Under the pieces are notes generated by a model. That model made no database searches. It was given only the letters and a program-made list of their open reading frames with translations, and had not been told where the DNA came from. Below are positions 3,536 through 36,619 of a DNA stretch of 64,000 nt, one piece after another; within the stretch, counting starts at the first letter, position 1; each line of letters opens with the position of its first letter. Source of the stretch: Verrucomicrobiota bacterium. GTDB lineage: Bacteria > Verrucomicrobiota > Verrucomicrobiia > Opitutales > Opitutaceae. The DNA lies in contig JACRKC010000042.1 of NCBI GenBank assembly GCA_016235555.1, forward strand, positions 62,001 to 126,000. Reading direction: 5' to 3'. The position numbers and the translations under genes are program-made.

Positions 3536-6500
3536 ATGCTCAAAGCGATCATCGACTTCTCGCTCCGGAACAAATTCCTCGTGCTCGCCGGCACGGTGGC
3601 GCTCGTCTGCGGCGGCATCTTCGCCCTGCAACGGATTCCCCTCGACGCGATCCCGGACCTCTCCGACACGCAGGTCATCATCTACACCGAGTGGCCGGGA
3701 CAGGCGCCGCAGATCGTGCAGGATCAGGTGACCTATCCGATCACGACGAAGATGTTGTCGGTGCCGTCCGCGAAAGTGGTGCGCGGTTATTCCTTCTACG
3801 GCTTCTCGTTCGTTTACGTGATCTTCGAGGATGGCACCGACCCGTATTGGGCGCGCAGCCGCGTGCTGGAATACCTGAGCGGGCTCAGTGGCAGCCTGCC
3901 GGCGGGCGTGACGCCGCGCCTCGGGCCGGATGCGACGGGCGTGGGCTGGGCGTTCATGTATTCGCTCAACTCGAAGAACCACGACCTCGCGCAACTGCGC
4001 TCCATGCAGGATTGGTTCCTGCGCTATCAGCTCGCGAGCGTCGATGGCGTCGCCGAGATCGCCTCGGTCGGCGGCTTCGTGAAGCAATACCAGATCACGG
4101 TCGATCCGCACCGGCTGCACGCCTACAATCTGTCCATAGCCGAGGTCGCGATGGCGGTGCAGAAGAGCAACGGCGAGGTCGGCGGACGCTCGGTCGAGAT
4201 GGCCGAGAAGGAATTCATCCTCCGCGTGAAGGGCTACGTTTCCTCGGTGGAGGACCTGCGCAAGGTCGCCGTGGGCCGCGGTCCGGCCGGGACGCCCGTG
4301 TTGCTCGGCGAAGTCGCGAACGTCGGGCTCGGCCCCGACATGCGGCGCGGCATCGCCGAACTCAACGGCGAGGGCGAGACAGTCGGCGGCGTCGTGGTCG
4401 TGCGCTACGGCGTGGACACGCGCCAGGTCATCCAGGCGGTTCGCGCCAAGCTCGACCAGGCGATGAAAAGCCTGCCCGAAGGCGTCACCTATTCGGTGGC
4501 CTATGACCGCACCGCGCTGATCGACCGCGCGGTGCGCACCCTCAAGGAGAAGCTCATCGAGGAAAGCGTCGTCGTCGCCCTCGTGTGCCTCGTCTTCCTG
4601 ATGCACCTGCGCAGCTCGCTTGTGGCGATCATCATCCTGCCGATTGCCGTGCTCGCCTCGATTCTGATCATGTTTGGGCAGGGACTGAGCGCGAACATCA
4701 TGTCGCTCGGCGGTATCGCCATCGCCATCGGCGCGATGGTGGACGCGGTCATCATCATGATCGAAAACGCGCACAAGCACATGGAGCACGACGGCGGCAA
4801 GAAGCCGCATTGGGACATCATCCGCGATGCCTCCGTCGAGGTCGGCCCCACGTTGTTCTACTCGTTGCTCGTCATCACGGTCTCGTTTCTGCCGGTGTTC
4901 ACCTTGCAGGCGCAGGAAGGCCGCATGTTCAAGCCGCTCGCGTTCACCAAGACCTACTCGATGGGCGCGGCGGCGCTGCTCTCCATCACGCTCGCGCCGG
5001 TGCTGATGGGCTTTTTCATCCGCGGCAAAATTCCCGCCGAAGAAAAAAATCCGGTGAACCGTCTTCTCATCTGGATGTATCACCCGCTGCTGGATCGCAT
5101 GATCAAGTATCGCTGGATCGTGATCGCCGCGGCGGCGTTGATCGTGGGCTGGGTGTTCTTCCCGTGGAACGCGGTGGTGTCGCGCGTGCTGCCCGACGGC
5201 ACGGCCAAGGAGTTCGCCTTCAAGCTCGGGAAGGCGTTTCCCTATCAAAATATCGGCTCGGAGTTCATGCCGCCGCTCTACGAGGGCGACCTGCTCTACA
5301 TGCCGACGACGTTCCCCGGCATCTCGCCGACGAAGGCGCGGGAAATCATCCAGCAGACCGACCAGATCATCAAATCGTTTGCCGAGGTGCATCACGTCTT
5401 CGGCAAGATCGGGCGGGCGGAATCCGCGACCGACCCCGCGCCAATGGACATGATCGAGACGACCATCATGCTCAAACCCGAGGAGGAGTGGCCCGTCGTC
5501 GACTTCATGGACGACAACGGGAAGGTCATCGCCCATCGGCGGCGGACCATCGACGAACTCACGGCTGCGATGAACGGTGCCGTGCAGATTCCCGGTCTCA
5601 CGAACGCATGGACGATGCCGATCAAGACGCGCATCGACATGCTCGCCACGGGCATCAAGACGCCCGTCGGCATCAAGGTCGCCGGTTCCGATCTCCGCGA
5701 GCTGGAACGCATCGCCAGCGAAATTGAAGGCGTGATCCGGCGCGCACCCGGCACGAGCAGCGTGTTTGCCGAACGCGTGATGGGCGGCAACTACGTCGAG
5801 TTCGACATCGATCGCGACGCCATCGCCCGCTACGGCCTCACCGTCGGCGAGGTGCAGGAAACCTTGCAGGTCGCGCTCGGCGGGATGCCGCTGACGACGA
5901 CCGTCGAGGGTCTCGAACGCTACGGCGTGATTCTCCGCTACGAACGCGACTACCGCGAAAATCTCGAAGCCCTCCGCGAAATTCTGATTCCGGTGAAGGC
6001 GGGCGCGAAAGCCGGCGGGATGGGCGGCGCCGGGGGCGCAACGATGGCCCAGGTGCCGTTGAGCCAGCTCGCGAACGTGCGCGTGGTCGCCGCCCCGATG
6101 GGCGTGAAGAGCGAAGCCGCCGTGCCGAACGCATGGATCTACGTCGATGTGCAGGGCGTGGACATCGGCAACTACGTGCGCGGCGCGCAGCGCACCGTGA
6201 ACGACGCGATCCGCAGCGGCGAAATCAAGGTGCCGACCGGCTACAGCATTTTCTGGAGCGGCCAGTATGAATACATGCAGCGCGCCAAGGCGCGGCTCAT
6301 GATCGTGGTGCCGCTTACGCTCCTGATCATTATCTTCATCATCTACCTGAACACGCAGTCATGGATCAAAACGTCCATCGTGCTGCTCGCGGTGCCGTTC
6401 TCGCTGGTCGGGGCGTTCTGGGCGCTGCACCTGGCCGGCTACAACATGAGTGTAGCGGTGTGGGTCGGCATCATTGCCCTTGCCGGCCTCGACGCCGAGA

Positions 6501-10169: not shown

Positions 10170-11186
10170 ATGAAAAGTCCGCTCTTTTTCTTCGCCGCCT
10201 TGACCGCCCTCTCGGTGCCTGCCGCGCGCGTGTCGGCCCATGAAGGCCACAACAAAGCGCCGGGCGAATCCGGTGCCGGCCCGCTTACCGGCCCGGTCAC
10301 ACTCACGGCGACCGCCGAAAAGAATCTCGGCTTGAAAACCGAGGCCGCCGAGCTGCGCACGCTGGAAAAAACGGTCGCCATCCTCGGTAACGTCGAACTC
10401 GACCCATCGCGCGTCGCGGCCATCGCCAGCCGCATCTCGGGGCGCATCACCCGGCTCGCGGTGAAGGAAGGCGACCGCGTGGCCGAAGGCGACTTCCTGC
10501 TCGAAGTCGAGAGCCGGCAGGTCGGCGACCCGCCGCCGAAACTGCAATTCAAGTCGCCCATCGCCGCCACCGTTTACGAGCAGCCGATCTTCACCGGCGA
10601 CAGCGTGGAACCCAACGCCCGCCTGCTTACGCTCGCCGACCTTTCCGAACTCTACCTCGTCGGCCGCCTCTACGAAGGCCAGGCCGCGCAGGTCAAGAAA
10701 GGCCAGACCGTCCGCATTCGGGCCGAGGCTTACCCCGAGGATCAATTCACCGGCACCGTCGAGGGCTACACACCGCGGCTTGATCCCGAGACCCGCACAC
10801 TCGGCGTGCGCGTGCGCGTCGCCAATCCCGACCAGAAACTGCTGCCGAACATGCGCGCCACCTTGCAGATAGTCACCGCGCAAGCCGACACCGTGATCAC
10901 CGTGCCGTTGTCGGCCGTGCTCGGCGAATCAGGCAATCTCTTCGTCTTCGTGCAGGACGATAAAGACCCGCACACGTTCACGCGCACGCCCGTCGTCGTC
11001 GGCCAGCGCGACGACCGTTACGCCGAAGTGATTGAGGGCGTGCTGCCCGGCGCGAACGTTGTGACCGTCGGCAACTATCAGCTTCAATACGTCGCGCCCA
11101 CACCACCGAAGGAAGCGCCGGCGGCGGCAACCGCCGCCACGAAGGCTCCCGCCGCGAAACCGGCCGACGACGGCCACAAGCACTGA
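10170..11186 (+). CDS. CzcB/CnrB-like RND periplasmic adaptor
   Basis: Membrane-fusion protein of 338 residues. A signal peptide ends near VSAHEGH. Then come barrel-sandwich and lipoyl-like segments ([45 protein letters not shown]), a beta-barrel region with [26 protein letters not shown], and the membrane-proximal domain. The hairpin is very short, as in some CzcB/CnrB homologues. The C terminus is an Ala/Pro/Lys linker ending in HKH. It has a short His stretch but no CPMHP heavy-metal module, unlike the Cus-type adaptor. The pump gene starts 10 nt later, so this is one operon. Confidence 0.88.
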
Positions 11187-11196
11187 GCCGCTCGCC

Positions 11197-14100
11197 ATGC
11201 TAAACCGGCTCATCGAATTCTCGCTGCGCAACCGCCTGTTCGTGCTGGCGGCGAACGCGCTCCTGCTCATCTACGGTGGTTTCGTCATCGCGAAACTGCC
11301 CGTCGATGTGTTCCCCGACCTGAACCGGCCGACGGTGAACATCATGACGGAGGCCACGGGCCTGGCGCCGGAGGAAGTCGAGACGCTCGTCAACCTGCCG
11401 ATGGAAACCGCGCTCAACGGCGCGCCAGGCGTGAAGCGCGTCCGCTCCGCCGCCGGCATCGGCCTTTCCATCCTCTACGTCGAATTCGATTGGGGCATGG
11501 ACATCTACCGCGCACGCCAGCTCGTGCAGGAACGCCTGCAACTCGCCGCGGAAAAACTCCCGCGCGGCGTCACGCCCACGATGGGACCGATCAGCTCCAT
11601 CATGGGCGAAATCATGCTCATCGGTCTGCGCAGCGAAAACGGCGCGACCGCGCCGATGGACATCCGCTCGCTCGCCGATTGGAACGTGCGCCAGCGGCTC
11701 CTCACGATTGCCGGCGTCTCGCAAGTCATCGCCATCGGTGGCGGCGTGAAGCAGTATCAGGTTCTGCCGGCGCCCGCGAAGATGGCCGCGCTCGGCGTGA
11801 GCCTCGAAGAGGTGCTGACCGCGGCGCGCGAAGCGCAGGAAAACAGCTCGGGCGGCTTCCTGGAAAATGCCAACAAGGAGGCGCTCATCCGCAACGTCGG
11901 CCGCACGACTTCGCTCGAAGACATCGGCAACTCCGTCGTGACCGTCCGCAAAGGCGTGCCCGTCCGCCTGCGCGATGTTGCCGAGGTGAAGTTTGGCCGC
12001 CAGGTCATGCGCGGCGATGCCGGCGTCAACGGCGAACCCGCCGTCATCCTCTCGGTGCAAAAGCAACCCGGCACCGATACGCTGACCCTCACGCGCCTGG
12101 TCGAGGCCGCCCTCGCCGAGATGGGCAAGACGCTCCCATCCGACGTGAAAATCATCACGCTCTTCAAGCAGGGAAATTTCATCTCGGCGGCGGTGCGCAA
12201 CGTCGAGGAGGCGATCCGCGACGGCGCCATCATGGTCGTGATCGTGCTGTTTCTCTTCCTGCTCAATTTTCGCACCACGCTCATCACGCTCACGGCCATT
12301 CCCCTCTCGTTCGTCGTCACCGGCCTCTATTTCAAGTTCGCCGGCATCACCATCAACACGATGACGCTCGGCGGCCTGGCCGTCGCCATCGGCATGGTCG
12401 TGGACGACGCCATTGTGGACGTGGAAAACGTCTTCCGCCGGCTGCGCGAGAATCGCCACGCCGCCCACCCACGCCCGGTCCTGCGAGTCATCGCCGAGGC
12501 TTCGTCGGAGGTGCGAAACTCCATCCTGTTCGCGACCCTGGTCATCATTCTCGTTTTCATCCCGCTCTTCGCGCTCGGCGGCATCGAGGGCCGGCTCTTC
12601 GCGCCCATCGGCGTGGCCACCATCGTCGCGATGATCGCATCATTCGTCGTGTCGCTCACGGTGATTCCGGCGCTCGCTTCCTACCTGCTGCCGAAGATGA
12701 AGCGCATGGAGCACGAAAATGACGGTTGGCTGGTGCGCGGACTGAAAGCGTTCGACCAAAGGCTCATTCTCGGCCCGTCCATGCGCCACCCGTGGGTCGT
12801 GATGGTCCTGGCGTTGCTGCTCGTCGCCGGCTCGTTCGCGCTCTACCCGCGCATGGGCAAGCTGTTCCTGCCGGAATTCAACGAGGGGACTTCGACCATC
12901 AACCTTCTCTCCGCCCCCGGCACCTCGCTCGCCGAATCCAACCGCGTCGGTGTGATTGCGGAAAAACTCGTGCTGGCCGTCCCCGAGGTCGCCTCGACGG
13001 GCCGCCGCACCGGGCGCGCCGAGTTGGACGAGCACGCCGAGGGCGTGCATTACACCGAGATCGACGTGGATTTCAAAAAGTCCACGCGTTCCCGCGAAGC
13101 GATCCTCGACGACATTCGCGAAAAGCTGGCGCAGATTCCCGGCGTCGTCAGCAATGTCGGCCAGCCGATCTCCCACCGCCTCGATCATCTGCTGTCCGGC
13201 GTGCGGGCACAGATCGCGGTGAAGATTTTCGGTCCCGACCTGGACAAACTTCGCACCTACGCGTCAGAGGCGGAAGCCGCGATGAACGACATTCCGGGGT
13301 TGGTCGATTTGCAGACGGAAAAGCAGGTGCTCATCGACCAGATCAAGATCGAGGTGAATCGCGAGAAGGCCGCCATGTATGGGCTCAAGACCGGCGCGCT
13401 GAACGAGCAGCTCGAAGCCGCGCTCAACGGCGCGACCGTCGCGCAGGTGCTCGAAGGCCAGCGCACCTACAATCTCGTGGTGCGGCTCAATGAACCGTCG
13501 CGGCTCAACGTTGCCGCGATTCGCGACATCCTTATCGACGCGCCGGTCGGCGGCAAAGTCCCGCTCTCGCTTGTCGCCGCGGTGCGCGAAAGCAAAGGCC
13601 CGAACGCGATCAACCGCGAGGATGTGCAGCGCCGGATCGTCGTCTCGGCGAACGTGTCGGGCCGCGACCTTGGTTCGGTCGTGGGTGAAATCCAAGCCGC
13701 GCTCACCGCCAAGCTGCACCTCGAAACCGGCTACTTCGTCAGCTACGAGGGCCAGTTCCAAAGCCAGCAGGAAGCGACGCGCGTCATCGGCATCCTCGCG
13801 ATCTTCACCTTCGGCACGATTTTTCTCCTCCTCTACTCGCACTTCCGCTCGGGGATGATCGTCGCGCAGATTCTGCTGAACATCCCGCTGGCGTTCATCG
13901 GTGCGCTTGGCCTGACCTATGTCATGGTAGGGCAGGTGTCGATCGCGACGCTCGTCGGCCTCATCACGCTCGCGGGCATCGCCTCGCGCAACACGATCAT
14001 GATGATCTCGCACTACCTCCACCTGATGGAGCACGAGGGCGAGAAGTTCGACGCCCACATGATCGTGCGCGGCTCGCTGGAGCGGCTCGTCCCGGTCACG

Positions 14101-22373: not shown

Positions 22374-24764
22374 ATGAACCACGAACACTGCAAACACTCC
22401 GGGCCTGGGAAAGGTCACAATCACGCCGGGCATCGCGCGTCCGTCCACGACCACGGCAAGCCGGGGGATGACCAACCCGGCGGACACGAATGCTGCGGCC
22501 ACCACGGGCACAGCATCGAGGTGAAACCGTCCGCCGGTGCGGCTTATTATTGCCCGATGTGCGAAGGTGTGGAGTCCGATAAACTCGGCGATTGCCCGAA
22601 GTGCGGCATGGCGCTGGAGCGAAACCCCGCCGTGCCTCTGGCCGGAAAGACCATCTACACCTGCCCGATGCACCCGCAGGTCGAACAGGATCACGCCGGA
22701 GCGTGCCCGATCTGCGGGATGGCGCTCGAACCCAAGATCGTGAGCGCGGGCGAGGTCGAAGAGGAGAACACCGAACTTCGCGACATGACGCGGCGGCTGT
22801 GGATCGGCGGCGCTTTGAGTTTGCCGGTCTTCGTGCTCGCGATGGCGCACCTCGTGCCGGCATTCGCTCACGTGGCCAACGGGACGATCAGCCGGTGGAT
22901 TCAATTTCTCTTTTCGACTCCGGTGGTCTTGTGGGCCGGGTGGCCGTTCTTCGTGCGCGGGGCGCGGTCGTTCCGCAACGGCCACTGGAACATGTTCACG
23001 CTGATCGCGCTCGGCGTGGGTGCGGCGTGGATTTATAGTGTGGTCGCATTCTTCCTTCCCGGCGTGTTTCCGCCGGCCATGCGGATGCACGAGGGCGTGG
23101 TGGATGTTTATTTCGAGGCCGCCGCCGTCATTGTCGTATTGGTGCTGCTCGGTCAGGTGCTTGAACTCCGCGCGAGGGCGCGCACCTCCAGCGCGATCAA
23201 GGCGCTCCTGAATTTGGCTCCGCCGACGGCGATCCGTGTGACTGACACCGGCGACGCGGAGGTCGCACTGTCGGAAGTCAAAACCGGCGACCGTCTGCGC
23301 GTGCGCCCCGGCGAGAAAGTTCCGGTGGATGGAGTCATTGAGGAAGGCACATCGTCGATCGATGAATCCATGCTCACGGGAGAATCGCTGCCCGTGGAGA
23401 AAAAGGCTGGCGACGCCGTGACGGGCGGCACCGTCAACGGCACGGGCGGATTCATCCTTCGCGCGGGCAAGGTTGGAGCGGATTCGTTGTTGTCCCGCAT
23501 CGTGCAAATGGTCGCCGACGCGCAACGCAGCCGCGCCCCGATTCAGGGACTGGCCGACAAGGTGGCCGGCATCTTCGTGCCTGCGGTCGCGGCGATCGCC
23601 GTCCTGACGTTTTTGATTTGGTATTTCTTCGGCCCCGAGCCGCGTCTGGCCTACGCCATCGTCAACGCCGTCGCCGTGCTCATCATCGCCTGCCCGTGTG
23701 CGCTGGGCCTGGCCACGCCGATGGCGATCATGGTCGGCGTCGGGCGCGGTGCGCAGGCCGGCGTGCTCGTGAAGAACGCGGAAGCGCTCGAACACCTCGG
23801 CAAAGTCACCTATCTTGTCGTGGACAAAACGGGCACGCTCACAGAAGGGAAACCGCGTCTCACGGATGTTCTGCCGATTGCCGGCTGGGACGAAAACACC
23901 TTGCTGCAATCGGCAGCTTCGCTCGAACGCTCATCCGAGCATCCCCTCGCTGCGGCCATCGTGCGCGGAGCAGATGAGAAGAAAGTGGCGCTGCGCGATG
24001 TCGTCGATTTTCGCTCGGTCACTGCGGGCGGGGTGGTCGGAACGGTCGACGGAAAAATAATTCACGTCGGCAAATCCAAATTCCTCGAAGCCGAAGGCAT
24101 CGCCTTAAACACGATCCTCCAGGCGCGGGCTGCCGCGCTTCAAGCCGACGGTAAGACCGTGCTATTTGTCGGCGTGGACGGGAATATCGCCGGCCTGCTA
24201 GCGGTGGCCGATCCAATCAAGGAATCCACCCCCGAAGCCATCGCGCTGCTGCACGAACTCGGCGTGAAGCTCGTCATGGCCACGGGCGACAACCGGCGCA
24301 CAGCCGAAGCCGTGGCCCGCAAACTGGGTCTCGACCAATTCGAGGCCGAGGTCGAACCCGCCGACAAGATCGAGCAGGTCAACACGCTCAAACGCGGCGG
24401 CCAGGTTGTCGCGATGGCTGGCGACGGTATCAACGACGCGCCCGCCCTTGCCGCCGCCGACGTGGGGATCGCGATGGGCACCGGCACCGATGTCGCGATG
24501 GAGAGCGCGGGGATCACCCTCATCAAAGGCGACCTGCGCGGTATCGCGAAGGCGATTCGGCTCTCCCGCGCCACCCTGCGCAACATCCGGCAAAATCTCT
24601 TCTTCGCGTTCGTTTACAACGCGCTCGGCGTCCCGATTGCGGCCGGGATTCTCTATCCGTTCTTTGGCGTGCTGCTGAGCCCGATGATCGCCGGGGCGGC
24701 GATGTCACTTTCCTCCGTTTCCGTCATCACGAACGCGCTCCGGCTGCGGCGAGTTCGCCTGTGA
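22374..24764 (+). CDS. copA: P1B-type Cu(I)-translocating ATPase CopA
   Basis: A 796-residue metal ATPase. The N terminus is His-rich ([18 protein letters not shown]...[10 protein letters not shown]). It then has two heavy-metal-binding modules (YYCPMCEG...[17 protein letters not shown]...CPICGMALE) instead of a classic HMA domain. The core has CPC at 440-442 ([13 protein letters not shown]), phosphorylation motif DKTGT at 484, TGES, the HP motif (SSEHPLA), [10 protein letters not shown], and C-terminal helices with [11 protein letters not shown] and [16 protein letters not shown], the Cu(I) subtype signature. It exports Cu(I) from the cytosol. It lies 29 nt after the CorE-like sigma factor gene, implying joint copper control. 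Confidence 0.95.
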
Positions 24765-25043: not shown

Positions 25044-25322
25044 ATGAGGATCTACGAAGCCAGCATCGCCTACAACCTGGTTCAACTCGGCGACGTGCAG
25101 GCGCTCACCACTCCGGACAAGATCGCGGAGTATCTACGCGACGGTTACGCCAAGAACCCCTGCCAGGAAAGCCTGTGGGTGGTCTGTCTCGACCGGAAGA
25201 ACAAGCCCATCAGCCGCACGATGGTCACGCTGGGGACGCTCACATGCGCTCTCGCGCACCCGCGCGAGGTGTTCAAGATAGCGATTCTGGCGTCGGCTGC
25301 CGCGATTGTGGTTTCGCACAAC
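25044..25322 (+). pseudogene. radC: radC-like gene, 5' part (interrupted)
   Basis: The first 93 codons of a RadC/JAB-domain protein: ESLWVVCLDRKNKPISRTMVTLGTLTCALAHPREVFK..AILASAAAIVVSHN. The reading is cut at the second residue of the JAMM motif HNHPSGD. The missing part (HPSGD...GLL, stop) continues in frame at 30044-30223 on the other side of the recombinase element. Joined, the two parts make a 150-residue protein, the length of short island-borne RadC proteins. Such short RadC proteins are common on plasmids and genomic islands; their function is uncertain. Confidence 0.9.
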
Positions 25323-25323
25323 C
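25317..25323. repeat. left junction, 7-bp core CACAACC
   Basis: CACAACC is shared with the right junction at 30044-30050. The left flank is radC coding sequence (codons for VVSHN) and the right flank is element DNA (TATGTGCTGCG). It is probably the crossover (overlap) region of the tyrosine recombinases, or a target duplication. Confidence 0.8.
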
Positions 25324-25434
25324 TATGTGCTGCGACACATAGATTGTGTTATGTTGCGCGCAGACCTATGTGGAGTGGACAGCCGCTTGTCGGAGTCACT
25401 TCGCTCTACGTGGCAGCGAAATCGCTACACATAA
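25324..25434. repeat. left terminal inverted-repeat region of the RIT element
   Basis: Contains TATGTG-type sites at 25324, 25336 (inverted, CACATA), 25367 and 25428 (inverted). The block from 25343, TTGTGTTATGTTGC...CTATGTGGAGTGGAC, matches the right end inverted (TTGTGTTATGTGTTGC...CTATGTGGAGTGAAC), and CGCT-CACATA near 25424 matches too. CACAACCTATGTG and CACATAGATTGTG form a 13-bp dyad around CTGCGA (25317-25348). These are probably recombinase-binding sites. Confidence 0.78.
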
Positions 25435-25446
25435 CTGGGCAGACAA

Positions 25447-25935
25447 TCAGGCGAGGCTGACGCGTTCTGCGGTGGCGCGCTTGACGGCAGCCTTGACGTT
25501 GCCGAGGCAGCACGAGCCTTGGGGGTTGCGAATCTCGCAGGCGCAAAAATCAGCCTTCATCTCCGCGGCGATGCGCTCGATCACGGTGGATTTTCCGGTG
25601 GCAACAAGTTCTTCGCGAATCATCGCGGGCGTGAAGCCGAAGCAATAGCACACCGGCGCATGCGCGGGATCTTTTTGAGTGACCGGGCGGCGAACGTTGC
25701 CGGTAGTCAGAACCGCTCCAACGGCGCTGAAATAAACAACCGGGCACTCCGGCGTGGGGCAGAAGTGAAATCCCCCCGCATTTACGGTCGGCAAAAGCTG
25801 GGACTTAACTTGGTGCTTGAGCGTGAGGGTCGAGACCGGACGACCGGCGTGCCCGCAGCGCGGGCAGGACGCCTTCGCGGTTGATTCCTTCACCGACGAG
25901 CACTCGTCACCTTTCGTTGAGCAACAATCGGACAT
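25447..25935 (-). CDS. Cys-rich putative [2Fe-2S]/zinc metallochaperone (CopZ-like, mer-associated)
   Basis: A 162-residue cytosolic protein. The N-terminal half has CPRCGHAG..., VNAGGFHFCPTPECPVVYF, a zinc-ribbon-like pattern; the C-terminal half has CYCFGFT...MKADFCACEIRNPQGSCCLGN, the four-Cys pattern of BFD/CopZ-type [2Fe-2S] domains. This two-domain layout is that of the iron-sulfur metallochaperones seen in CopZ and in some mer operons. It lies 5 nt downstream of merTP in the same direction. It probably accepts the imported metal from MerTP. The extra N-terminal Cys (CCSTKGDEC) are unusual. It is the last cargo gene before the left end of the element. Confidence 0.82.
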   Translation of the reverse strand: MSDCCSTKGDECSSVKESTAKASCPRCGHAGRPVSTLTLKHQVKSQLLPTVNAGGFHFCPTPECPVVYFSAVGAVLTTGNVRRPVTQKDPAHAPVCYCFGFTPAMIREELVATGKSTVIERIAAEMKADFCACEIRNPQGSCCLGNVKAAVKRATAERVSLA

Positions 25936-25940
25936 GGTGG

Positions 25941-26531
25941 TCAGTTTAGCGGCTCCGCTTTGAAGCCCGTGGCGTCGATCTTGGCGATCACCGCCGTCGC
26001 AGAAATCACGGCAGGATTGTAAACGACCTCAGCTTCTTTCGTCGCGTAGCGGACGACCGCCGTGCGGATACCCGGAACCCGCTGCAGCGTGCCGGCGATG
26101 CCGACGGCACAGGCGGCGCAGTCCATGGAGGGGATGCGCACGCGCAGCACGCGGTCATCCGCCGGCGTGGTGCTTGCGACCGTGGAGTGGCCGACGACGG
26201 TTTGTGCAAGCTGCGGAAACAGAGCGACCGCACCAACAACCACCGTGCTAAAAATCAAAACGCCGAGGGTCCACCGACTCGCTTGCGGCGTCGCACAGGT
26301 GCCGTCCGCGCAGGCAATGCGGCGGGCTCGCAGGGTCAGCACCCACGCGAGGGCAAGGAGCGCAACGGTGATGCCGAGAAAAACCGGCCGCCAGCGTTCG
26401 AACCAGCCGGCGGCGACAAAACTGCCCGCGCCCGCGACGACCGCCACCAGCGGCCCGATGCAGCAAAGCGAGGCCGCCACGGCGGACAAAAATCCGCCTG
26501 TCAGAATCCACGATTGCTTCACCGGCTTCAT
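25941..26531 (-). CDS. merTP: MerT-MerP fusion, mercuric ion transport protein
   Basis: A 196-residue inner-membrane protein. The MerT part has three membrane helices, the paired Cys C23-C24 in helix 1 (SLCCIGP) and a second pair C74/C79 in the loop (CADGTC). After a third helix it continues into an HMA/MerP domain with MDCAAC (C138, C141). In separate systems MerP is periplasmic and hands Hg(II) to MerT; here they are one chain. The start lies only 48 nt from the divergent merR start, with the shared operator between. No merA reductase is present in the element, so the fate of imported Hg(II) is unexplained. Confidence 0.9.
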   Translation of the reverse strand: MKPVKQSWILTGGFLSAVAASLCCIGPLVAVVAGAGSFVAAGWFERWRPVFLGITVALLALAWVLTLRARRIACADGTCATPQASRWTLGVLIFSTVVVGAVALFPQLAQTVVGHSTVASTTPADDRVLRVRIPSMDCAACAVGIAGTLQRVPGIRTAVVRYATKEAEVVYNPAVISATAVIAKIDATGFKAEPLN

Positions 26532-26544
26532 GGACTCAGCTTAC

Positions 26545-26569
26545 ACCCTGTAGTATGGTATAAGGTCAA
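26545..26569 (-). promoter_or_regulatory. MerR-type operator/promoter between merR and merTP
   Basis: The interval holds an imperfect 22-bp dyad (ACCCTGTAGTATGGTATAAG... with end GT, 26545-26566). On the minus strand TTGACC (26569-26564) is a -35 followed, after 18 to 19 bp, by TGTAAG/GTAAGC as weak -10. An over-long spacer containing a dyad is the hallmark of MerR-controlled promoters. The transcript would start only a few nt before the merTP ATG, so it may be nearly leaderless. Confidence 0.65.
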
Positions 26570-26579
26570 CCGCCATGTC

Positions 26580-26984
26580 ATGACTATCGGAGAACTCGCC
26601 AAAGCCGCCGAAGTAAATGTCCAGACCGTCCGCTACTATGAGCGAATGGAACTCTTGCCGGCGACCCACCGCTGGCCGGGATCGGGTTACCGGGACTTTG
26701 ACGATGAAGCCCTGAGCCGGCTGCGGTTCATCCGGTCGGCGAAAGACCTCGGGTTCACCCTGCGGGAGATCAAGGAGTTGATGGAAATGCAATTTTTACC
26801 GGGCGAGTCGTGCGCCGAAGTGAAACGCCTTTTGGAGGGCAAGCAGCAGGAGCTTGATCGGCGCATGCTGGAGATGCGTCGGTTGCACCGCGCCTTGGGA
26901 AAACTCATCACGGCTTGCCGGCGGCGATCCGCGAAGACGACGTGCCCGGCCCTCTGGGCGATCGCGTTTAGGGCGGGAAATTAG
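26580..26984 (+). CDS. merR: MerR, Hg(II)-responsive transcription regulator
   Basis: A 134-residue MerR-family regulator: winged helix MTIGELAKAAEVNVQTVRYYERMELLPATHR..GSGYRDFDDEALSRLRFI, coiled dimer helix, and metal loop. Cys residues C78, C113 and C122 correspond to C79, C114 and C123 of Tn501 MerR with a constant offset of one (ACRRRSAKTTCPAL), so the mercury site is intact. It is divergent from merTP across the dyad operator. Its stop codon overlaps the convergent stop of a recombinase gene by 3 nt, so cargo and recombinases are packed tightly. Confidence 0.92.
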   Translation: MTIGELAKAAEVNVQTVRYYERMELLPATHRWPGSGYRDFDDEALSRLRFIRSAKDLGFTLREIKELMEMQFLPGESCAEVKRLLEGKQQELDRRMLEMRRLHRALGKLITACRRRSAKTTCPALWAIAFRAGN

Positions 26985-27994
26985 AGCGTGGAAAGCCAGG
27001 AGAGGATGTCCTTGTTCGCGCGCCATGATGTCGCCGATGACTTCATTTTGGGCAGAAGTTTTTCGGCCGAGGCGAGGGTCTTTTGCTTCATCTCCAGGTC
27101 GATCTCGACGTAGGTGTTGGTGGTCTCGATGGAGGCGTGGCCCAGCCAGGAGCGGATCATGGCGAGGTCCACGTTGGATTGAAGGAGGTGCATGGCGGTT
27201 GTGTGGCGCCATGTGTGCGGGGTGATCGGTCGCGTGAGCAACGGAGGACACCGTTGCGCCGCTGCACGCACGCGATGAGTGACGATGTAGCGCACCCCGT
27301 AGCGCGTGAGCCGGTCCCCGTCGGTGTTGAGGAAGAGCGGCACCGCATCGGTGTGCCGAATGGCTCGCGTCTGAAGGTAACGCTTAAGCGAGCTGACGGT
27401 CTCCGCCCAGAGCGGGCAGACCCGCTCCTTGCGGCCCTTGCCATGAATCAGAACCGTAAAGGGTCGCGTGATGCGAACATGCCGGACATCGAGATCGACC
27501 ACTTCCTGCGCGCGCATGCCGGTGTTGTAGAGCATCCGCAGGAGGGCGTCGTCACGCTGGCCGAGCAAAGTCCGGCAATCGATCTGGCGGAAAATCGCCT
27601 GCACTTCGTCTCGCTCCAGATACTGCGCGACACGATGCGGCCGGCGCTTGAATGGCACATCAAAAATCGCCTGGCAGTGAACCAGGTGCCTAGGATCGAC
27701 GGTTGTGAGGTAGCGGAAAAAAGAATGGATCGCTGCCAGCCGGAGGTTGCGAGTCACCACCCGGTTGTGGCGGTCGTCCTCAAGATGAGTGAGAAACCGA
27801 CGGACCAGCTCCGGCGTGAGGTCGTCGAGCACGAAGTCGTTCACCTGCTTGCGTGGTTGCCGGCAGGCAAACTCCAGCAGCAGTTTGAACGTGTCGCGAT
27901 ACGATACGACGGTGTGACCGCTGAGACCTCGTTGCGACACGAGGTGCTGATCGAAAAAGCCCCGGATCAACGATGCGAAGTCGGAGGGTGGCAT
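26981..27994 (-). CDS. tyrosine recombinase, third gene of the trio (RitC-like)
   Basis: A 337-residue phage-integrase-family recombinase. The N-terminal SAM-like core-binding domain has FFDQHLVSQRGLSGHTVVSYRDTF. Catalytic residues are visible: Arg in YNTGMRAQEVVDL, Lys in HGKGRKERV, H-x-x-R in ITPHTWRHTTA, His in SWLGHASIETT and Tyr in NTYVEI. It overlaps the second recombinase gene by 28 nt. All active residues are present, so it should be functional. It is last in the minus-strand trio, and its stop touches the merR stop. Confidence 0.92.
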   Translation of the reverse strand: MPPSDFASLIRGFFDQHLVSQRGLSGHTVVSYRDTFKLLLEFACRQPRKQVNDFVLDDLTPELVRRFLTHLEDDRHNRVVTRNLRLAAIHSFFRYLTTVDPRHLVHCQAIFDVPFKRRPHRVAQYLERDEVQAIFRQIDCRTLLGQRDDALLRMLYNTGMRAQEVVDLDVRHVRITRPFTVLIHGKGRKERVCPLWAETVSSLKRYLQTRAIRHTDAVPLFLNTDGDRLTRYGVRYIVTHRVRAAAQRCPPLLTRPITPHTWRHTTAMHLLQSNVDLAMIRSWLGHASIETTNTYVEIDLEMKQKTLASAEKLLPKMKSSATSWRANKDILSWLSTL

Positions 27995-28953
27995 AGCCTG
28001 CTGGCCGCCGGGACGGCGAAATGATCGTGGAAGCGTTGGCCGGTGCTCTCCATCAACTCCACCGTGGCGTGGAGATAAACCTCGGTGCCGGTCACGGTGC
28101 TGTGGCCAAGGTAGGTCGATAAGGTCGGGAGTTTAGCGAAAAGATTATCGCCCGCCCGGTGCCACGCCAGCAGCCGGGAAACGGCGAAGGAGTGGCGCAG
28201 ATCGTGAATCCGTGGACCACGTTGGCCGGAGGGACCGCGAAGCCCGAGGCGTCGGAGGATCTGCAGGAAGGTGGTCGTGAACGTCGGCACGTGATAACGC
28301 CCGCCCGACGCCGCCGGGAAAAAGGGCGCGGTTGGCTCCTGCGAGAAGCCTGCGTTGCGCCTCTGCCGGAGATAGAATGCGAGGTGTTCCACGGTCGAAG
28401 GTGCCAGCGGCACATACCGCGTCTTCTGGAACTTGGTCTGCCGAATCAGGATGAGGGCACGCTTCAGTTCCACGTCCGCCAGGTTGAGCTTCACCGCTTC
28501 ACCGACGCGCAGTCCGGTGGCGTAGAGGAATCCCACGATGGTCGCGAACACGGCGGGGCGAAGGGCATCGCGCGAGCGCACCGCCTTGCCGGCGGTCATG
28601 ATGCGGCACACCTCCTGTCGAGTATAGATGTGCGGCATCGGCCGGTTGCGCCTCGGCAGAAACATCCGATGCACGATGCACGTGCGCGGATCGAAATGGC
28701 TCAGGTAGCGACAAAACTGCCGCAGCACGGACATCCGGTTGATCCGCGTCCCGGGCGCAAGGTGCTCCATGCTCTTGAACCAACCCTCCGCGGCCTGGCG
28801 GGTGATCGTGTCGCCGGGCTTCACCGCACCCATCAGGAAGCGATCCAGGCAGCAGAGAATCTTAAAAGTCGGTGGACGCTTCGCGGCCGGGCGGGCCTCC
28901 AGAAAACACTGGAGGCGGAAAGCGAGCGGACTGCGGAAAGAACACGTGGCCAT
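27967..28953 (-). CDS. tyrosine recombinase, second gene of the trio (RitB-like)
   Basis: A 328-residue tyrosine recombinase. Visible are TGLRVGEAVKLNLADV (first Arg), RQTKFQKTRYVPL (Lys region), RIHDLRHSFAVSRLL (H-x-x-R), YLGHSTVTGTEVYLHAT (His and Tyr). The chain between H-x-x-R and LGH is longer than usual (AWHRAGDNLFAKLPTLSTY), a feature of the RitB-type branch of the trio. It starts 3 nt after the stop of the first recombinase and overlaps the third by 28 nt, so the three are expressed together. Each probably acts on different positions of the element ends. Confidence 0.91.
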   Translation of the reverse strand: MATCSFRSPLAFRLQCFLEARPAAKRPPTFKILCCLDRFLMGAVKPGDTITRQAAEGWFKSMEHLAPGTRINRMSVLRQFCRYLSHFDPRTCIVHRMFLPRRNRPMPHIYTRQEVCRIMTAGKAVRSRDALRPAVFATIVGFLYATGLRVGEAVKLNLADVELKRALILIRQTKFQKTRYVPLAPSTVEHLAFYLRQRRNAGFSQEPTAPFFPAASGGRYHVPTFTTTFLQILRRLGLRGPSGQRGPRIHDLRHSFAVSRLLAWHRAGDNLFAKLPTLSTYLGHSTVTGTEVYLHATVELMESTGQRFHDHFAVPAASRLCHPPTSHR

Positions 28954-28956
28954 CGC

Positions 28957-29889
28957 TCACCTCCGCGGCCACGGCATTGCGACTTGCCGGAGTGTCTTCA
29001 AGTCCGCCTTGGCGTAGATGTAAGTTGTATCGATGTAGCGATGACCGAGAACATCGGCGATGGCCTTGATCGGCTGGTCGTGCTCCAGCGCCCGGATCGC
29101 CCAGGAATGACGCAAGCTGTGCGCCCCGCGTCCGGGTTGGTGAACACCGGCTTTGAGCATGTAGTGCTTTACGACGTTGGAAACGGCCATGCTGCTGAGG
29201 GAGCCGTGGGGCGCCTTGGTGCTGAGAAAAACCTCGCGATACGGTGTCCGAGGATCGCGGTGCCGGAGCCACTGAATGATCGCTTCGCCGACGGCATCGA
29301 GGAGTGGAACAAGCACCTCTTTGCCACCCTTTTGGGCGCGAAAACGAATCTTGGCCTGTGGCCAGTCGAGGTCTTCGAGCGACAAGTGTGCGGCGGAAAC
29401 GGCCCGGACACCGTAAGCCATCAAAACGAGAATGATCGCGTAGGGATCAAGGAGCCAGCTATGCTTCGTGATGACTGGAGCCGGCCGTGGGAACGCCATG
29501 ACCTTGATCGCTTCGAGATAGAGGAAAAGGTGCTTGAGGTGGGCCAGGCAGTTATCGCGCGGCCTGTAGCGCGAACACGTGCTGCGCACCTCGCCCAGAT
29601 ATGCCGCCAGAAACTCTCCAACTAGCGCGTCGGAGATCGCCGCGAGGTCTTTGATGCCGCGCTCGATCAGGAACGCGTTAAACACACAGCATGGGCCGAG
29701 GATTATGCACGCAGTCTTGTTGGCATATCCGTTATGCTTCAGGCCGGCAGCGAAGCCGTCAAAGTAACCACCCAGAGGCCCGCGTCTGAAATCGGCCAGC
29801 GCGCGCCGGTCGATGTAGAAATACTCCAACCCCTTTTCATCCGACGGCGCCGAGGGATAGAACGGCTTGCGCATGACCCAGCTCATCAC
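28957..29889 (-). CDS. tyrosine recombinase, first gene of the trio (RitA-like)
   Basis: A 310-residue tyrosine recombinase. Catalytic signature: YGVRAVSAAHLSLEDL (Arg), RAQKGGKEVLVPL (Lys), GAHSLRHSWAIRAL (H-x-x-R), VLGHRYIDTTYIYAKAD (His and Tyr). The N-terminal part carries several Cys and aromatic residues (YANKTACIILGPCCVFN). It is the promoter-proximal gene, starting about 160 nt inside the right end of the element. The upstream 70 nt hold a small dyad (29925-29945) but no clear promoter. Length and motif set are normal. Confidence 0.91.
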   Translation of the reverse strand: MMSWVMRKPFYPSAPSDEKGLEYFYIDRRALADFRRGPLGGYFDGFAAGLKHNGYANKTACIILGPCCVFNAFLIERGIKDLAAISDALVGEFLAAYLGEVRSTCSRYRPRDNCLAHLKHLFLYLEAIKVMAFPRPAPVITKHSWLLDPYAIILVLMAYGVRAVSAAHLSLEDLDWPQAKIRFRAQKGGKEVLVPLLDAVGEAIIQWLRHRDPRTPYREVFLSTKAPHGSLSSMAVSNVVKHYMLKAGVHQPGRGAHSLRHSWAIRALEHDQPIKAIADVLGHRYIDTTYIYAKADLKTLRQVAMPWPRR

Positions 29890-29959
29890 GCGTCAACGCC
29901 GAGGAAAAGCACGCTACCGTCAGAACTCTGCTAAAAAGCAGGAGTAAACCACGGAGAAC

Positions 29960-30043
29960 TATGTGCAGCGAATGAGCCCACTCGCCAAGAGGGGCGAAGG
30001 CGAAAATGCACGTTCACTCCACATAGCTCGGAGCAACACATAA
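29960..30043. repeat. right terminal inverted-repeat region of the RIT element
   Basis: Carries TATGTG at 29960 and, inverted, CACATA at 30020 and 30037. Read on the minus strand from 30050 it runs GGTTGTGTTATGTG-TTGC..., then CTATGTGGAGTGAAC, matching the left end (25343-25380) with one gap and few mismatches; CGCTGCACATAG near 29960 matches the inner left site. The middle, about 40 bp, has diverged. Probably recombinase arm sites. Confidence 0.78.
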
Positions 30044-30050
30044 CACAACC
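30044..30050. repeat. right junction, 7-bp core CACAACC
   Basis: Second copy of CACAACC. To the left is element DNA (ACACATAA), to the right radC coding sequence resumes (CATCCGAGCGGG, residues HPSG). Together with the left copy it marks the exact insertion. Confidence 0.8.
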
Positions 30051-30223
30051 ATCCGAGCGGGGATCCGGCGCCGAGTTCCGCCGACATCCAGCTCACCCGC
30101 CAGCTGCGGGAGGCCGCAAAGATCATCGGGATCGACCTCATCGACCACGTCATCGTCGGCACGGCGGAGGACGATCCGCTCCACGTGGGATTCTATTCCT
30201 TTCGAAACGCAGGACTCCTCTGA
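30044..30223 (+). pseudogene. radC: radC-like gene, 3' part (interrupted)
   Basis: Fifty-nine in-frame codons reading [16 protein letters not shown]...[19 protein letters not shown]...[16 protein letters not shown] and a TGA. It contains the JAMM metal motif [14 protein letters not shown] and continues exactly where the 5' part (25044-25322) stops. No start codon or promoter of its own is evident, so the protein is presumably not made unless the element excises. Confidence 0.9.
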
Positions 30224-30349: not shown

Positions 30350-30997
30350 GTGAACGCACTTGGTGAGACAATCCGTATTTTGATGGGTCGCCGGAAATTA
30401 ACCGGTGCGCAGTTGGCGGAAGACATTGGTCTGAGTGCTACTTCAGTAAGTCGCATCATCACGGGCCATTCGAAGCCAAAGCAGGTCACGTTAACCCGCC
30501 TCATGAAGCGGCTATGTGCCGGACCGGATGATGAACAAATGGTTCTGCGTGCATTTTCCGGACTGAAGGCTCCGTCCGCAGAAGAGCCAATTTCAGATGA
30601 TCCGCGTAACGCAACCGAGGAGCGTGATCGCGTCGAACGGTGGTTAGAGGCGCGCACCCAGGCGATCACCTTTAAGGATGCTGTTGCTCGTGAACTCGAC
30701 AAAGCCGGAATCGCCTATCGTCGCGACATGTGTGAAGGCATCGCATCCGCTGATTTCCTGATCGAACGCGGATCGAAGCGGCTCGCAGTAGAGTGCAAAT
30801 TCAACGTCAGCCGCGATTTTGACAAAACAGTCGGTATCGCACGGTTACTGTGTGAGCTGCTCCGCTGTCATAGCGTTATCATCGTCGTTCCATTTGTCGG
30901 TTCGTTTGCGGACGGCATCGTTGTCGGACCTCATGCGGTTGCTGTCTGCACTCCGGCTGAAGTTGCCGTGCAAATTGAGAAATGGGCCGCCGTCTGA
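30350..30997 (+). CDS. XRE-type HTH protein fused to a PD-(D/E)XK nuclease-like domain
   Basis: A 215-residue protein starting with GTG. Residues 1-60 form a Cro/XRE helix-turn-helix ([37 protein letters not shown]). The C-terminal half (about 100-190) looks like a restriction-endonuclease fold: [28 protein letters not shown] supplies the D...ExK pattern (Asp in ADF, Glu and Lys in VECK). It is first in the defence operon, immediately downstream of the ACTTAAA palindrome, and 2 nt before the helicase gene. It may repress the operon and sense or cut DNA. The nuclease activity is not certain; the domain could bind DNA ends only. Confidence 0.75.
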
Positions 30998-30999
30998 CC

Positions 31000-34520
<3,521 letters not shown>

Positions 34521-34524
<4 letters not shown>

Positions 34525-35897
34525 CTCCAACTAAACCACATACGCGATTAGATTCGTTGACCCTGAGGAACTATCGCTGCTTCCCGGAACTTGAGGTTAA
34601 GTTTCATCCTGCCCTCACGGTCGTGGTGGCGCCGAACGGCAGCGGTAAGACCGCGATTCTGGATGCCGTAGCCGTGGCGTTCCGCCTCTTCGTCGATACG
34701 ATCCAGACTCGAGAGGGATCACTAGGCTTCGATCATGCCGATATACGCCGACAACTCGGTTCGGACGGCACGATGTATTCCGTTCTCCCGACCAATTTTC
34801 ATGCTCAGGGCGCAATCGGAAACAATCCCTTACGCTGGTCTCGCGCCTTGGAGTCGGATAAACCGCGCGCCAAAACTACATTCGTTGACGCGGCCTCCAT
34901 CAAAGACGCCGCGACTACGCTACGCAAACACCTTCAAGACTTCGCCGATACTAAGCGCACGGACTCTCCGGTGCTCCCGCTCCTCGCATACTACGGCACC
35001 GGGCGACTCTTCGGCGCACATAAGCTCACGAAAAAGAAAGCAGAGGGTGGCACCAACCGGCTTCTCGGCTACGAGGACTGCCTCACCTCGGCTTCGCGTT
35101 ACAAATTTTTCGAGGACTGGTTTGAACGCTTTTCCCGAGTCGCCCAGCAAGATAAGACTGACGGCAAGCAGTCTGCCCACGCGCCTCGGGAAAAACTGGA
35201 AGCCGTCACCAATGCGGTGAACGCGCTTCTCGCGCCCAGTGGTTGGCAGAATCTTTCCTGGGATTTTGCCGAGAACCAGATCGTCGCCACTCACCTAGAA
35301 CACGGAACGCTGCCCGTTGATCATCTCTCCGACGGTATCCGTAACATGATTGGGATGGTGGGGGACATCGCCCATCGCTGCACCCGTCTCAATCCGCAGC
35401 TCGGCGTCGAGGCGGCCCGTCAAACTCACGGCATCGTGATGATCGACGAAGTCGACATGCACCTCCACCCCGAGTGGCAGCAGGTAGTTATTCAGTCCCT
35501 CCGCGATGCGTTTCCGCTCCTCCAGTTCATTGTCTCCACTCACAGTCCCCAAGTGCTGACGACGGTTAAGAGCGAGAACATCCGCGTGCTTGGGCGTAAC
35601 GCCGCCGGCACGTGGGAAGCATTGCCGCCTCCACAGGAAATCAAAGGCGTCGAAAGCGCTGTGGCGCTCAACAATGTCATGGGCGTCAACCCCATCCCGC
35701 CCGTCGACGAGGCGAAGTGGCTGGCGGACTACATCGCTCACGTCGAAAACGGCACCCATACCACGCCGGTGGCCGTCACCCTGCACAGTAAGCTTCTTAA
35801 TCTCTACGGCCCGGCACATCCCGTCTTGCTCGACGTGGATCGGCTCACCCGCTTCCAGGCCTTCAAGCTTCGCAAGGGCGCTTCGCCTCAACCCTGA
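34521..35897 (+). CDS. RecF/SMC-like AAA ATPase, PtuA-like
   Basis: A 458-residue ABC-type ATPase: [40 protein letters not shown] (Walker A near 37-44), signature-like region [18 protein letters not shown], Walker [17 protein letters not shown] with D309/E310, and [12 protein letters not shown] (H-loop). This is the AAA_21/AAA_23 type that pairs with HNH proteins in Septu. It has no TOPRIM domain, so it is not an OLD nuclease. It starts within the helicase stop codon and is followed 5 nt later by an HNH gene. Likely role: ATP-dependent sensor that controls the HNH nuclease. Confidence 0.85.
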
Positions 35898-35902
35898 TCG
35901 CG

Positions 35903-36619
35903 ATGCACAAGCTTGATCGTTCTTCCGTATCCGCTCCCGTTTGCCTAGCTGGCTACGACTATCGCACTCAGACTTGGGCCGATCTCGACCCCGGCTGTAA
36001 ACGCCAGGTGCGCCTCGCACTTCAGCGCATCCAAGGCCAGCAAATCGCCACCGGCGAGGCCGAAGACAGTGCCGAGTTTATCTTGGGTTTGCGTTGTGCC
36101 TACTGCGAAGGGGCGATTCGGCACGGCGGCCATTTGGAGCACTTCCGACGCAAAAATCGTAGCCATCCGAACGGCTATCCCGAACTCACCTTTGCATGGG
36201 AAAACCTGTTCCTCGCCTGCGCTTCCCAAGCACACTGTGGACATTACAAGGATCGTCCCGGAGCAGATGCCTACGACCCGGACGACCTCGTCAAACCCGA
36301 CATCCACGACCCTGACGCTTTTTTCTACTTCCACTCCACGGGCGAGGTCATGGTTCGCAACACCCGTCCCGGGATGACCGATGACGAGCGTCGGCGGGCT
36401 TCCGAAACTATCCGCGTGTTTAACCTCGATTGCAGCACCCTCCGAGGTGCCCGCTCGCGGGCACTGAAAACCTACAGCGACAGAAACCGCGGCATCCTGG
36501 AGTTCCTTATGGCGTGCGAAGTTGCCGACCGCGAAGCCTTCATTCGCGGCGAGATCGAGGCTACGTGCTGGGAACCCTACGCCATCACGATCAAACACTT
36601 TTTCGAAAAAGCAGCCTGA
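35903..36619 (+). CDS. HNH endonuclease family protein (TIGR02646/PtuB-like)
   Basis: A 238-residue protein with CAYCEG at 65-70, [11 protein letters not shown] as the conserved His-containing strand, [17 protein letters not shown] and a distal helical domain ending [12 protein letters not shown]. These C-x2-C...H...N/H features are the HNH pattern of the TIGR02646/PtuB type. It is directly behind the RecF-like ATPase and overlaps the next start (TGATG), so ATPase and HNH form a Septu-like toxin/nuclease pair embedded in a larger operon. Possible target: phage or tRNA/DNA; unknown for this protein. Confidence 0.82.

Follow-up and report, generated by a model that had tools for sequence, protein, structure and literature searches.

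A RIT-type transposon with a three-gene metal cargo splits radC in an Opitutaceae bacterium and points to a palindromic att site

Recombinase-in-trio (RIT) elements, known among others from Cupriavidus metallidurans CH34, Bordetella petrii and Aromatoleum aromaticum EbN1, consist of three adjacent genes for tyrosine recombinases, each with its own counterparts in other trios, between inverted ends. Their terminal inverted repeats are described as about 34 bp long (PMC10214605), the ends are given as a 28-9 bp inverted repeat with an overlapping palindrome and nothing else convincing (PMC3414803), and the insertion of such elements into radC, with inactivation of the gene, is on record since 2010 and 2012 (PMC2864759, PMC3414803). 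Table 1 of PMC10214605 lists three properties of RIT elements as not tested: their target specificity, the empty site and the way in which they move. We describe here a RIT-type element that interrupts a radC gene in a 64,000-nucleotide stretch of DNA (the window) from a Verrucomicrobiota bacterium of the family Opitutaceae (genome G000, an 8.03-Mb draft; contig C3, positions 62001-126000) and that carries, inside its ends, genes for a MerR-family regulator, a MerT-MerP fusion-like transporter (MerTP) and a CopZ-like metallochaperone (Table 1). We consider it likely that a RIT transposon has here brought three metal-related cargo genes into radC and that it is excised as a circle by way of a palindromic att site. 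The kind of element is known and the cargo makes this one a variant; the larger point is the att anatomy that its copies reveal.

The reading frame of radC breaks off in the window after the residues S-H-N at position 25322 and is picked up in frame at 30044, within what we take to be the JAMM motif of the protein. The sequence CACAACC stands at both borders, and joining the flanks at this shared core restores 150 codons with zero stops; together with Pfam RadC matches on both halves, this bears out what a sequence-only reading of the locus had claimed for the interrupted gene. That reading had further proposed that an uninterrupted relative of the joined gene should exist, and a protein search found one in genome G160, whose RadC is 89% identical at the amino acid level over residues 1-150. 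The two genes can be aligned at the DNA level over 453/453 bases without a gap (81% identity), and both CACAACCATCC and the core CACAACC are intact in G160. A RadC match at an E value of 1e-10 or better is present in 59 of 61 genomes of the family.

The unit between the two cores measures 4,727 bp. It is bounded by inverted arms of 37 nt that are 81% complementary, each with two TATGT half-sites spaced 17 bp apart; the length of the arms fits that published for RIT ends. The local score of these inverted ends is 16, against at most 9 in 300 shuffles; a chance origin of the inverted ends and of the palindromes described below was considered and is ruled out by the shuffle controls. The inverted ends noted earlier from the letters alone are therefore real, and we can add a near-palindrome at the left border. 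The left arm starts more than 20 bp inward of the left CACAACC because a 32-bp near-palindrome, in which 13/16 base pairs match, spans this border; the DNA reads CACAACC-TATGTG-CTGCGA-CACATA-GATTGTG and then enters the inverted end.

Near copies of the element are present in two relatives. Genome G099, a single contig of 5,957,605 bp that we take to be Opitutus terrae PB90-1, contains four copies that are identical over 5,090 bp, cargo included, each of which splits a different radC gene at the same codons; two copies lie in each orientation. The element of genome G430, which belongs to another genus of the family, is 97.4% identical to that of the window over 4,095 bp and 98.1% identical over 574 bp. 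The matching radC flanks of the window and G430 are only 79.1% and 76.8% identical, and because the identity of the element is so far above that of its flanks, the element most likely spread after the divergence of these genomes. Three radC 5' halves and three 3' halves lie beside element ends in G430, which we count as three insertions; just one of these copies is assembled through, and the cargo was seen in that one. The seven other insertions (four in G099, three in G430) thus affect different radC genes, all split at the same codons, and the four pairs of borders in G099 as well as the three left and three right borders in G430 all read CACAAYC, so that the ends first placed at CACAACC in the window recur in every related border seen. 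Likewise, the four identical copies in G099 and the 97-98% identical, cargo-bearing element of G430 back the earlier proposal that the element moved as a unit with its cargo. Taken as a group, the near copies suggest an element that is mobile as one unit, has a preference for radC genes and enters them via an unusual palindromic junction.

Searches with the Pfam RadC profile at an E value of 0.001 gave eight matches in G099, all of them halves that add up to the four genes split by the element, and found no unsplit radC in either G099 (one contig) or G283 (a draft genome, in which the two matches are likewise halves). Four other RadC matches are kept in G430, and G000 has three unsplit matches and one fragment. 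The assembled element of G430 (L179, G430:C58) is flanked on both sides by radC 3' halves (5807-5983 and 11060-11236) that point in opposite directions, and has no palindrome at either border; either recombination between two copies or misassembly would account for this arrangement.

The border palindrome follows a rule of side. It is a perfect 32-bp palindrome in three of the G099 copies and has one mismatched pair in the fourth, and it lies on the radC-5' side in 4/4 copies, whichever way the element is oriented. The same is seen in G430, with the palindrome at 3/3 radC-5' junctions and 0/3 radC-3' junctions. Four cargo-free relatives from Verrucomicrobia, Desulfuromonadaceae and Geobacter (L052, L054, L055 and L056) are inserted at the same motif and likewise carry the palindrome on the radC-5' side, in less perfect form (the 3' half of L054 was read by eye). 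A degenerate pattern of the radC-type palindrome with one mismatch allowed matched in 3/384 genomes of the class (once in G000, four times in G099 and once in G486; G430 is outside this sample), while the same pattern reversed gave zero matches in the 384 genomes. The match in G486 (G486:C31:102-133), which belongs to another family of the class, has zero mismatches, lies near a contig start and is probably one more radC-directed RIT element. Joining the two borders of one G099 copy at the core predicts a circle junction in which 33/33 positions are palindromic about the centre. Two G099 copies have unequal cores, L038 with CACAATC at the 5'/left border and CACAACC at the 3'/right border, and L037 with the reverse. 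The central six bases of the palindrome are asymmetric in the window and in G430: the cargo-side end has CTGCGA in the window and TCGCAG in G430 (L178), whereas the RitA-side end has CTGCGA in L181 and L182. To judge from these bases, the body of the element is turned relative to the palindrome between the window and G430 lineages.

We infer from these data that the three recombinases excise the element as a circle, in which both inverted ends would meet around the short palindrome to form one long palindromic att site with the 7-nt core (CACAAYC) in each arm. Either core could then recombine with the CACAAYC of the H-N codons of radC, so that, whichever way the element inserts, the palindrome would come to lie on the 5' side of radC and each border would keep one core. 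Such a palindromic att site would explain both the insertion in either orientation and the fixed side of the palindrome. The core would be exchanged as a heteroduplex, and a core mismatch may therefore segregate to either border; the segregation to both borders seen in L038 and L037 is what resolution of such a core by replication would produce. By the same route the window copy would have been inserted, and an inversion in place, with the inner core and the far core as partners, would turn the body against the palindrome.

To see how far this anatomy extends, a genome scan with a RitC alignment was used, from which the best 80 of 553 relatives were kept, a sample that leans toward the query and includes neither C. 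metallidurans nor B. petrii. These and 15 loci from a search of the family and phylum make up a first set of 95 loci, of which 68 had RitA, RitC and an end score of at least 18, while 27 were dropped (short contigs, RitA or RitC absent, or no ends). Both ends could be read in 56 elements; with a palindrome called at a score of 10 or more (the maximum was 9 in 1,000 shuffles), 39 have it at exactly one end, four at both and 13 at neither. The four G099 copies, L052, L055 and L056 are among the 39, and L054, with a visible palindrome scoring 8, was counted as having none; when these eight are set aside, 36/48 have at least one palindrome. By this scoring, most of the surveyed RIT elements show a similar palindrome feature with other cores, which vary widely between elements (e.g., CGGCTA, GTTTTCC, TTGCCC, GAGCGC, TCGGCC). 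The four elements with a palindrome at both ends (L042, L064, L109 and L116), some of them with long inverted flanks, may stem from insertion in tandem, from inversion within the population or from the assembly. Among the other loci, L053 lies within an apparent IS1380-type transposase gene (by eye), L098 and L100 are alike elements in two targets of one Cupriavidus necator record, and the outer core of L098 does not match its inner arm. Some draft contigs (L063, L083, L105, L113 and L115) hold hardly anything beyond a single RIT element, as is expected wherever identical copies interrupt assembly.

Several observations weigh against the proposed explanation as a whole. The predicted circle junction of the window copy is palindromic at 24/33 positions only. 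Both outer cores of the window read CACAACC and the inner arm reads CACAATC, so that segregation alone does not account for them without repair or a subsequent change. In the survey, 13/56 elements lack a palindrome at the threshold and 4/56 have one at both ends. The MerR and MerTP proteins score below their NCBIfam cut-offs, which makes the metal uncertain. A DNA-level search of 38 relatives with the radC 5' part returned just the match to itself, the empty-site homologue of G160 having come from the protein search. The anatomy, the ends, the target, the near copies and the excess of element identity over flank identity between two genera can be read directly from the DNA, whereas the excision of the element as a circle is inferred. 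Finally, a circle with a long perfect palindrome would be expected to be unstable as double-stranded DNA.

The strongest rival explanation is a strand-biased copy-out in which a single strand is exchanged, the palindrome folds as a hairpin and the donor stays in place. This is how the strand-biased circularizing integrative elements (SEs) behave, and perhaps Tn554; movement of this kind or its footprints is on record for both (PMC10214605). The SEs resemble the window element in having more than one recombinase gene, a circle and a short core that serves as a fingerprint, and differ in their intA-tfp-intB-srap gene order, gammaproteobacterial hosts, 6-bp spacer and use of one strand (PMC10214605). 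A nearly perfect palindrome could indeed fold on one strand, and identical copies that split every RadC-family gene found in G099 fit copying. However, one G099 copy has the core mismatch at its left border and another has it at its right border, a distribution that strict strand bias would not give, and the copies lie in both orientations. We therefore regard copy-out as unlikely, though worth keeping in mind, and continue with excision as a circle through a palindromic att site.

The assignment to the RIT type, already made from the letters alone, and the presence of three linked tyrosine recombinases hold up well. All three genes lie on the minus strand, and all three products match Pfam Phage_integrase. 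Each has its best match in its own counterpart in one trio, that of A. aromaticum EbN1 plasmid 2, with identities of 42.5% (160 aa) for RitA, 38.5% (265 aa) for RitB and 39.9% (306 aa) for RitC. This plasmid is named as a RIT carrier (PMC3414803), and the identification of the matching trio with one of the RITs of that paper relies on the plasmid name given there. H-x-x-R and G-H...Y are present in A, B and C, and with a first arginine placed by eye, all three may have the RH-Y catalytic motif. The window element differs from described RIT elements by the cargo inside its ends and a size of 4.7 kb vs. about 3.5 kb, by a gap of 3 nt between A and B and an overlap of 28 nt between B and C vs. 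overlaps of 4-8 bp (PMC3414803), and by its shortened RitA. A search of plasmids revealed no near copy of the element: it matched 17 records, none with a place that covers 80% of the query; among the 10 matches listed, the coverage is at most 4%. A tblastn search with RitA matched 969 plasmid records, all below 60% identity, 28 of which cover at least 80% of the query.

GInts are likewise site-specific and combine three recombinase-like genes with cargo, and a gin operon has been reported in Opitutus terrae in a statement at the level of the organism (PMC5385486), so that the window element might be a GInt-type genomic island of three integrases, ginD and cargo instead of a RIT element. GInts need ginD, have a GinC without the first arginine, direct imperfect repeats and a cargo of 2.5-70 kb (PMC5385486). 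In the window, ritC (26981) meets merR (26984) and leaves no room for a fourth gene, although no GinD search was made; H-x-x-R and Y are retained in each of the three proteins, so that the arginine loss of GinC is not seen (the first arginine being read by eye); the ends are inverted repeats, a term that the GInt paper (PMC5385486) does not use; and the recombinases match, one to one, a trio on a plasmid named for its RITs. Such an identity is highly improbable, and we rejected it for the missing room and the inverted ends.

The Tn554 family (Tn554, Tn558, Tn559 and Tn6188) is likewise recombinase-driven, carries resistance genes and has a preferred site in radC (PMC3788773, PMC9616846), and its hexamer is printed as TACTCA / GATGTA (PMC9616846). 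It differs in its tnpA-tnpB-tnpC gene set, its 6-bp core and its reported hosts, Firmicutes; membership was rejected, since the window has three tyrosine recombinases of 310, 328 and 337 aa vs. tnpA, tnpB (about 637 aa) and tnpC. GATGTA presumably encodes the D-V just after HNHPSG, which would place the Tn554 site a few codons away, and we know of no 32-bp palindrome in this family.

The cargo was first described as a mercury cargo of merR, merTP and a metallochaperone brought in by the element. The three genes are indeed present inside the ends; the metal is less certain, and no merA gene lies within the element. No MerA protein above the TIGR02053 cut-off of 454.45 was found in the two genomes searched (best score 390.4 in G000 and 377.9 in G099). 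The cysteines of the MerR protein at positions 78, 113 and 122 have a spacing of 35 and 9, which is that of the metal-binding cysteines of Tn501 MerR, although the protein stays below the curated MerR cut-off. A Cys-Cys pair close to the N-terminus and an HMA domain are present in MerTP, and the merT-merR intergenic region contains, by eye, TTGACC-N19-GTAAGC with an ACC...GGT dyad. Mercury is the likeliest metal, and mercury resistance is unproven. MerR-controlled MerTP and the CopZ-like chaperone most likely act on Hg(II) or another soft metal of that kind, with no reductase of their own. Of 374 genomes sampled from the phylum, only one other, G099, encodes a close relative of the CopZ-like protein (90%), and three more match at 30-33% (G430 is outside this sample).

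Cargo in RIT elements looks rare, as had been supposed. In four of the 68 elements of the first set, all of them G099 copies, RitC and the inverted end lie more than 400 bp apart (1,606 bp). A second set of 79 loci, from viral contigs and ten regions, contained 63 with RitC and RitA, of which 53 had resolved and ten unresolved ends; the gaps in these 53 are at most 208 bp except in L215 (354), L236 (536) and L246 (6,507), the last being probably spurious, since its near twins L247 and L255 give 57. Cargo was thus seen among the 68 and 53 elements with resolved ends in the four G099 copies only, with one doubtful other; the cargo-bearing copies of the window and G430 stand outside these counts. 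This survey is limited in that ends were sought no farther out than 1.5 kb on the upstream side of RitA and 8 kb on the downstream side of RitC, so that larger or RitA-side cargo would be missed, in that loci without resolved ends could hide cargo, and in that some elements are counted more than once (L040 is the same element as L081, L108 appears identical to L301, and several viral contigs repeat). A search at an E value of 1e-50 reached apparent XerC/XerD proteins, and its 94 matching genomes out of 387 are not a count of RIT elements. That nearly all other surveyed RIT elements are free of cargo might suggest that the cargo arrived on its own, or that the segment consists of two nested insertions, the RIT element never having moved it; this can hardly be credited and was rejected, since the inverted ends enclose the cargo in the window, in the assembled copy of G430 and in all four G099 copies, which are identical at different radC genes.

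Use of radC as a target is not confined to the cargo-bearing elements. G283 has a cargo-free RIT element (L039), whose RitC is 37% identical to that of the window and which splits the only radC found there a few codons further on, in the opposite direction and with the palindrome on the 3' side (by eye). At least two RIT lines thus hit the JAMM motif of radC, a gene in which Tn554-type elements insert as well. The 79 loci of the second set yielded no RadC fragment.

RitA of the window comprises 310 residues, compared with 437 in G430 and 452 in G099. Its 310 residues align to the G430 protein with 1 difference, and 127 residues (381 bases) are gone, in frame, between two CTACGC repeats; the missing stretch corresponds to residues 150-276 of the G430 protein, 165-291 of G099 and 134-260 of L055. 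RitA has been described with two sequential core-binding domains (PMC8138268), a feature that the window protein does not show, while the sister copies are full length. Matches to Phage_int_SAM_1 fall almost wholly inside the missing stretch in L055 (132-209, E 4.3e-7) and in G099 (163-241, E 1.8e-4, just under the cut-off); L052 gives an E value of 0.12 only, and the G430 RitA has no match. The window RitA would thus have lost a region with one core-binding domain through a deletion between 6-bp repeats, and the absence of these 127 residues probably leaves the window copy non-autonomous, provided that the deletion is not an assembly error.

Several neighbours of the split gene are noted in passing. 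A heavy-metal P-type ATPase (by-eye reading of the translation) is encoded directly upstream of radC, at about 22500-24764. Downstream, the region 30350-34524 encodes a helix-turn-helix regulator and then a 1,180-aa helicase with a NO VEIN C-terminal domain that resembles DrmD of DISARM (370 bits, under the cut-off of 610). It is followed at 34521-36619 by a gene for a PtuA-like ATPase (279 bits, short of the cut-off of 500) and a small HNH-nuclease-like gene (by eye), a possible Septu-like defence pair.

Table 1. Features of the split radC gene and of the inserted element (positions in the window)
Feature	Position	Strand	Remarks
radC 5' part, including the target core CACAACC	25044..25323	+	Pfam RadC profile 2-72 of 121; joined frame 150 codons
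Target core CACAACC, left copy (codons H-N + C)	25317..25323	+	direct sequence reading
32-bp near-palindrome: core, TATGTG-CTGCGA-CACATA, inverted core GATTGTG	25317..25348	+	
Left terminal inverted repeat	25344..25380	+	half-sites TTATGTT and CTATGTG, 17 bp apart
Cargo: CopZ-like putative iron-sulfur metallochaperone, 162 aa	25447..25935	-	NF047645, 137.9 bits, above cut-off 100; zf_CopZ
Cargo: MerT-MerP fusion-like transporter, 196 aa	25941..26531	-	MerT and HMA domains above Pfam cut-off; NF033556, 109.9 bits, below cut-off 180
Cargo: MerR-family regulator	26580..26984	+	best NCBIfam TIGR02051 MerR, 112.5 bits, below cut-off 150.85
RitC tyrosine recombinase, 337 aa	26981..27994	-	
RitB tyrosine recombinase, 328 aa	27967..28953	-	
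RitA tyrosine recombinase, 310 aa	28957..29889	-	lacks 127 internal residues present in G430 and G099
Right terminal inverted repeat	30012..30048	-	
Target core CACAACC, right copy	30044..30050	+	direct sequence reading
radC 3' part, from HNHPSGD to the stop at 30223	30044..30223	+	Pfam RadC profile 71-119 of 121

In the literature searched, we found no RIT element with cargo, no fixed side of a palindrome and no palindromic circle junction; because the founding RIT papers lie outside that search, the novelty of the end anatomy is provisional. We put forward, as a tentative generalization that may well fail, that RIT elements as a class have a self-complementary att site, the circle junction being a long palindrome whose two arms each hold a changeable 7-nt core, that they can thereby insert in either orientation, invert in place between inner and far core and shift to new targets through one arm at a time, and that the cargo-bearing Opitutaceae branch has become a radC specialist able to occupy all radC genes of a host. 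Because identical copies occupy several radC genes, they provide exact ends, the core, an orientation rule and predicted junctions that can be tested by PCR. That neither G099 nor G283 yielded an unsplit radC bears on the question of what RadC is for, and the cargo shows that a RIT element is able to carry accessory genes between genera.

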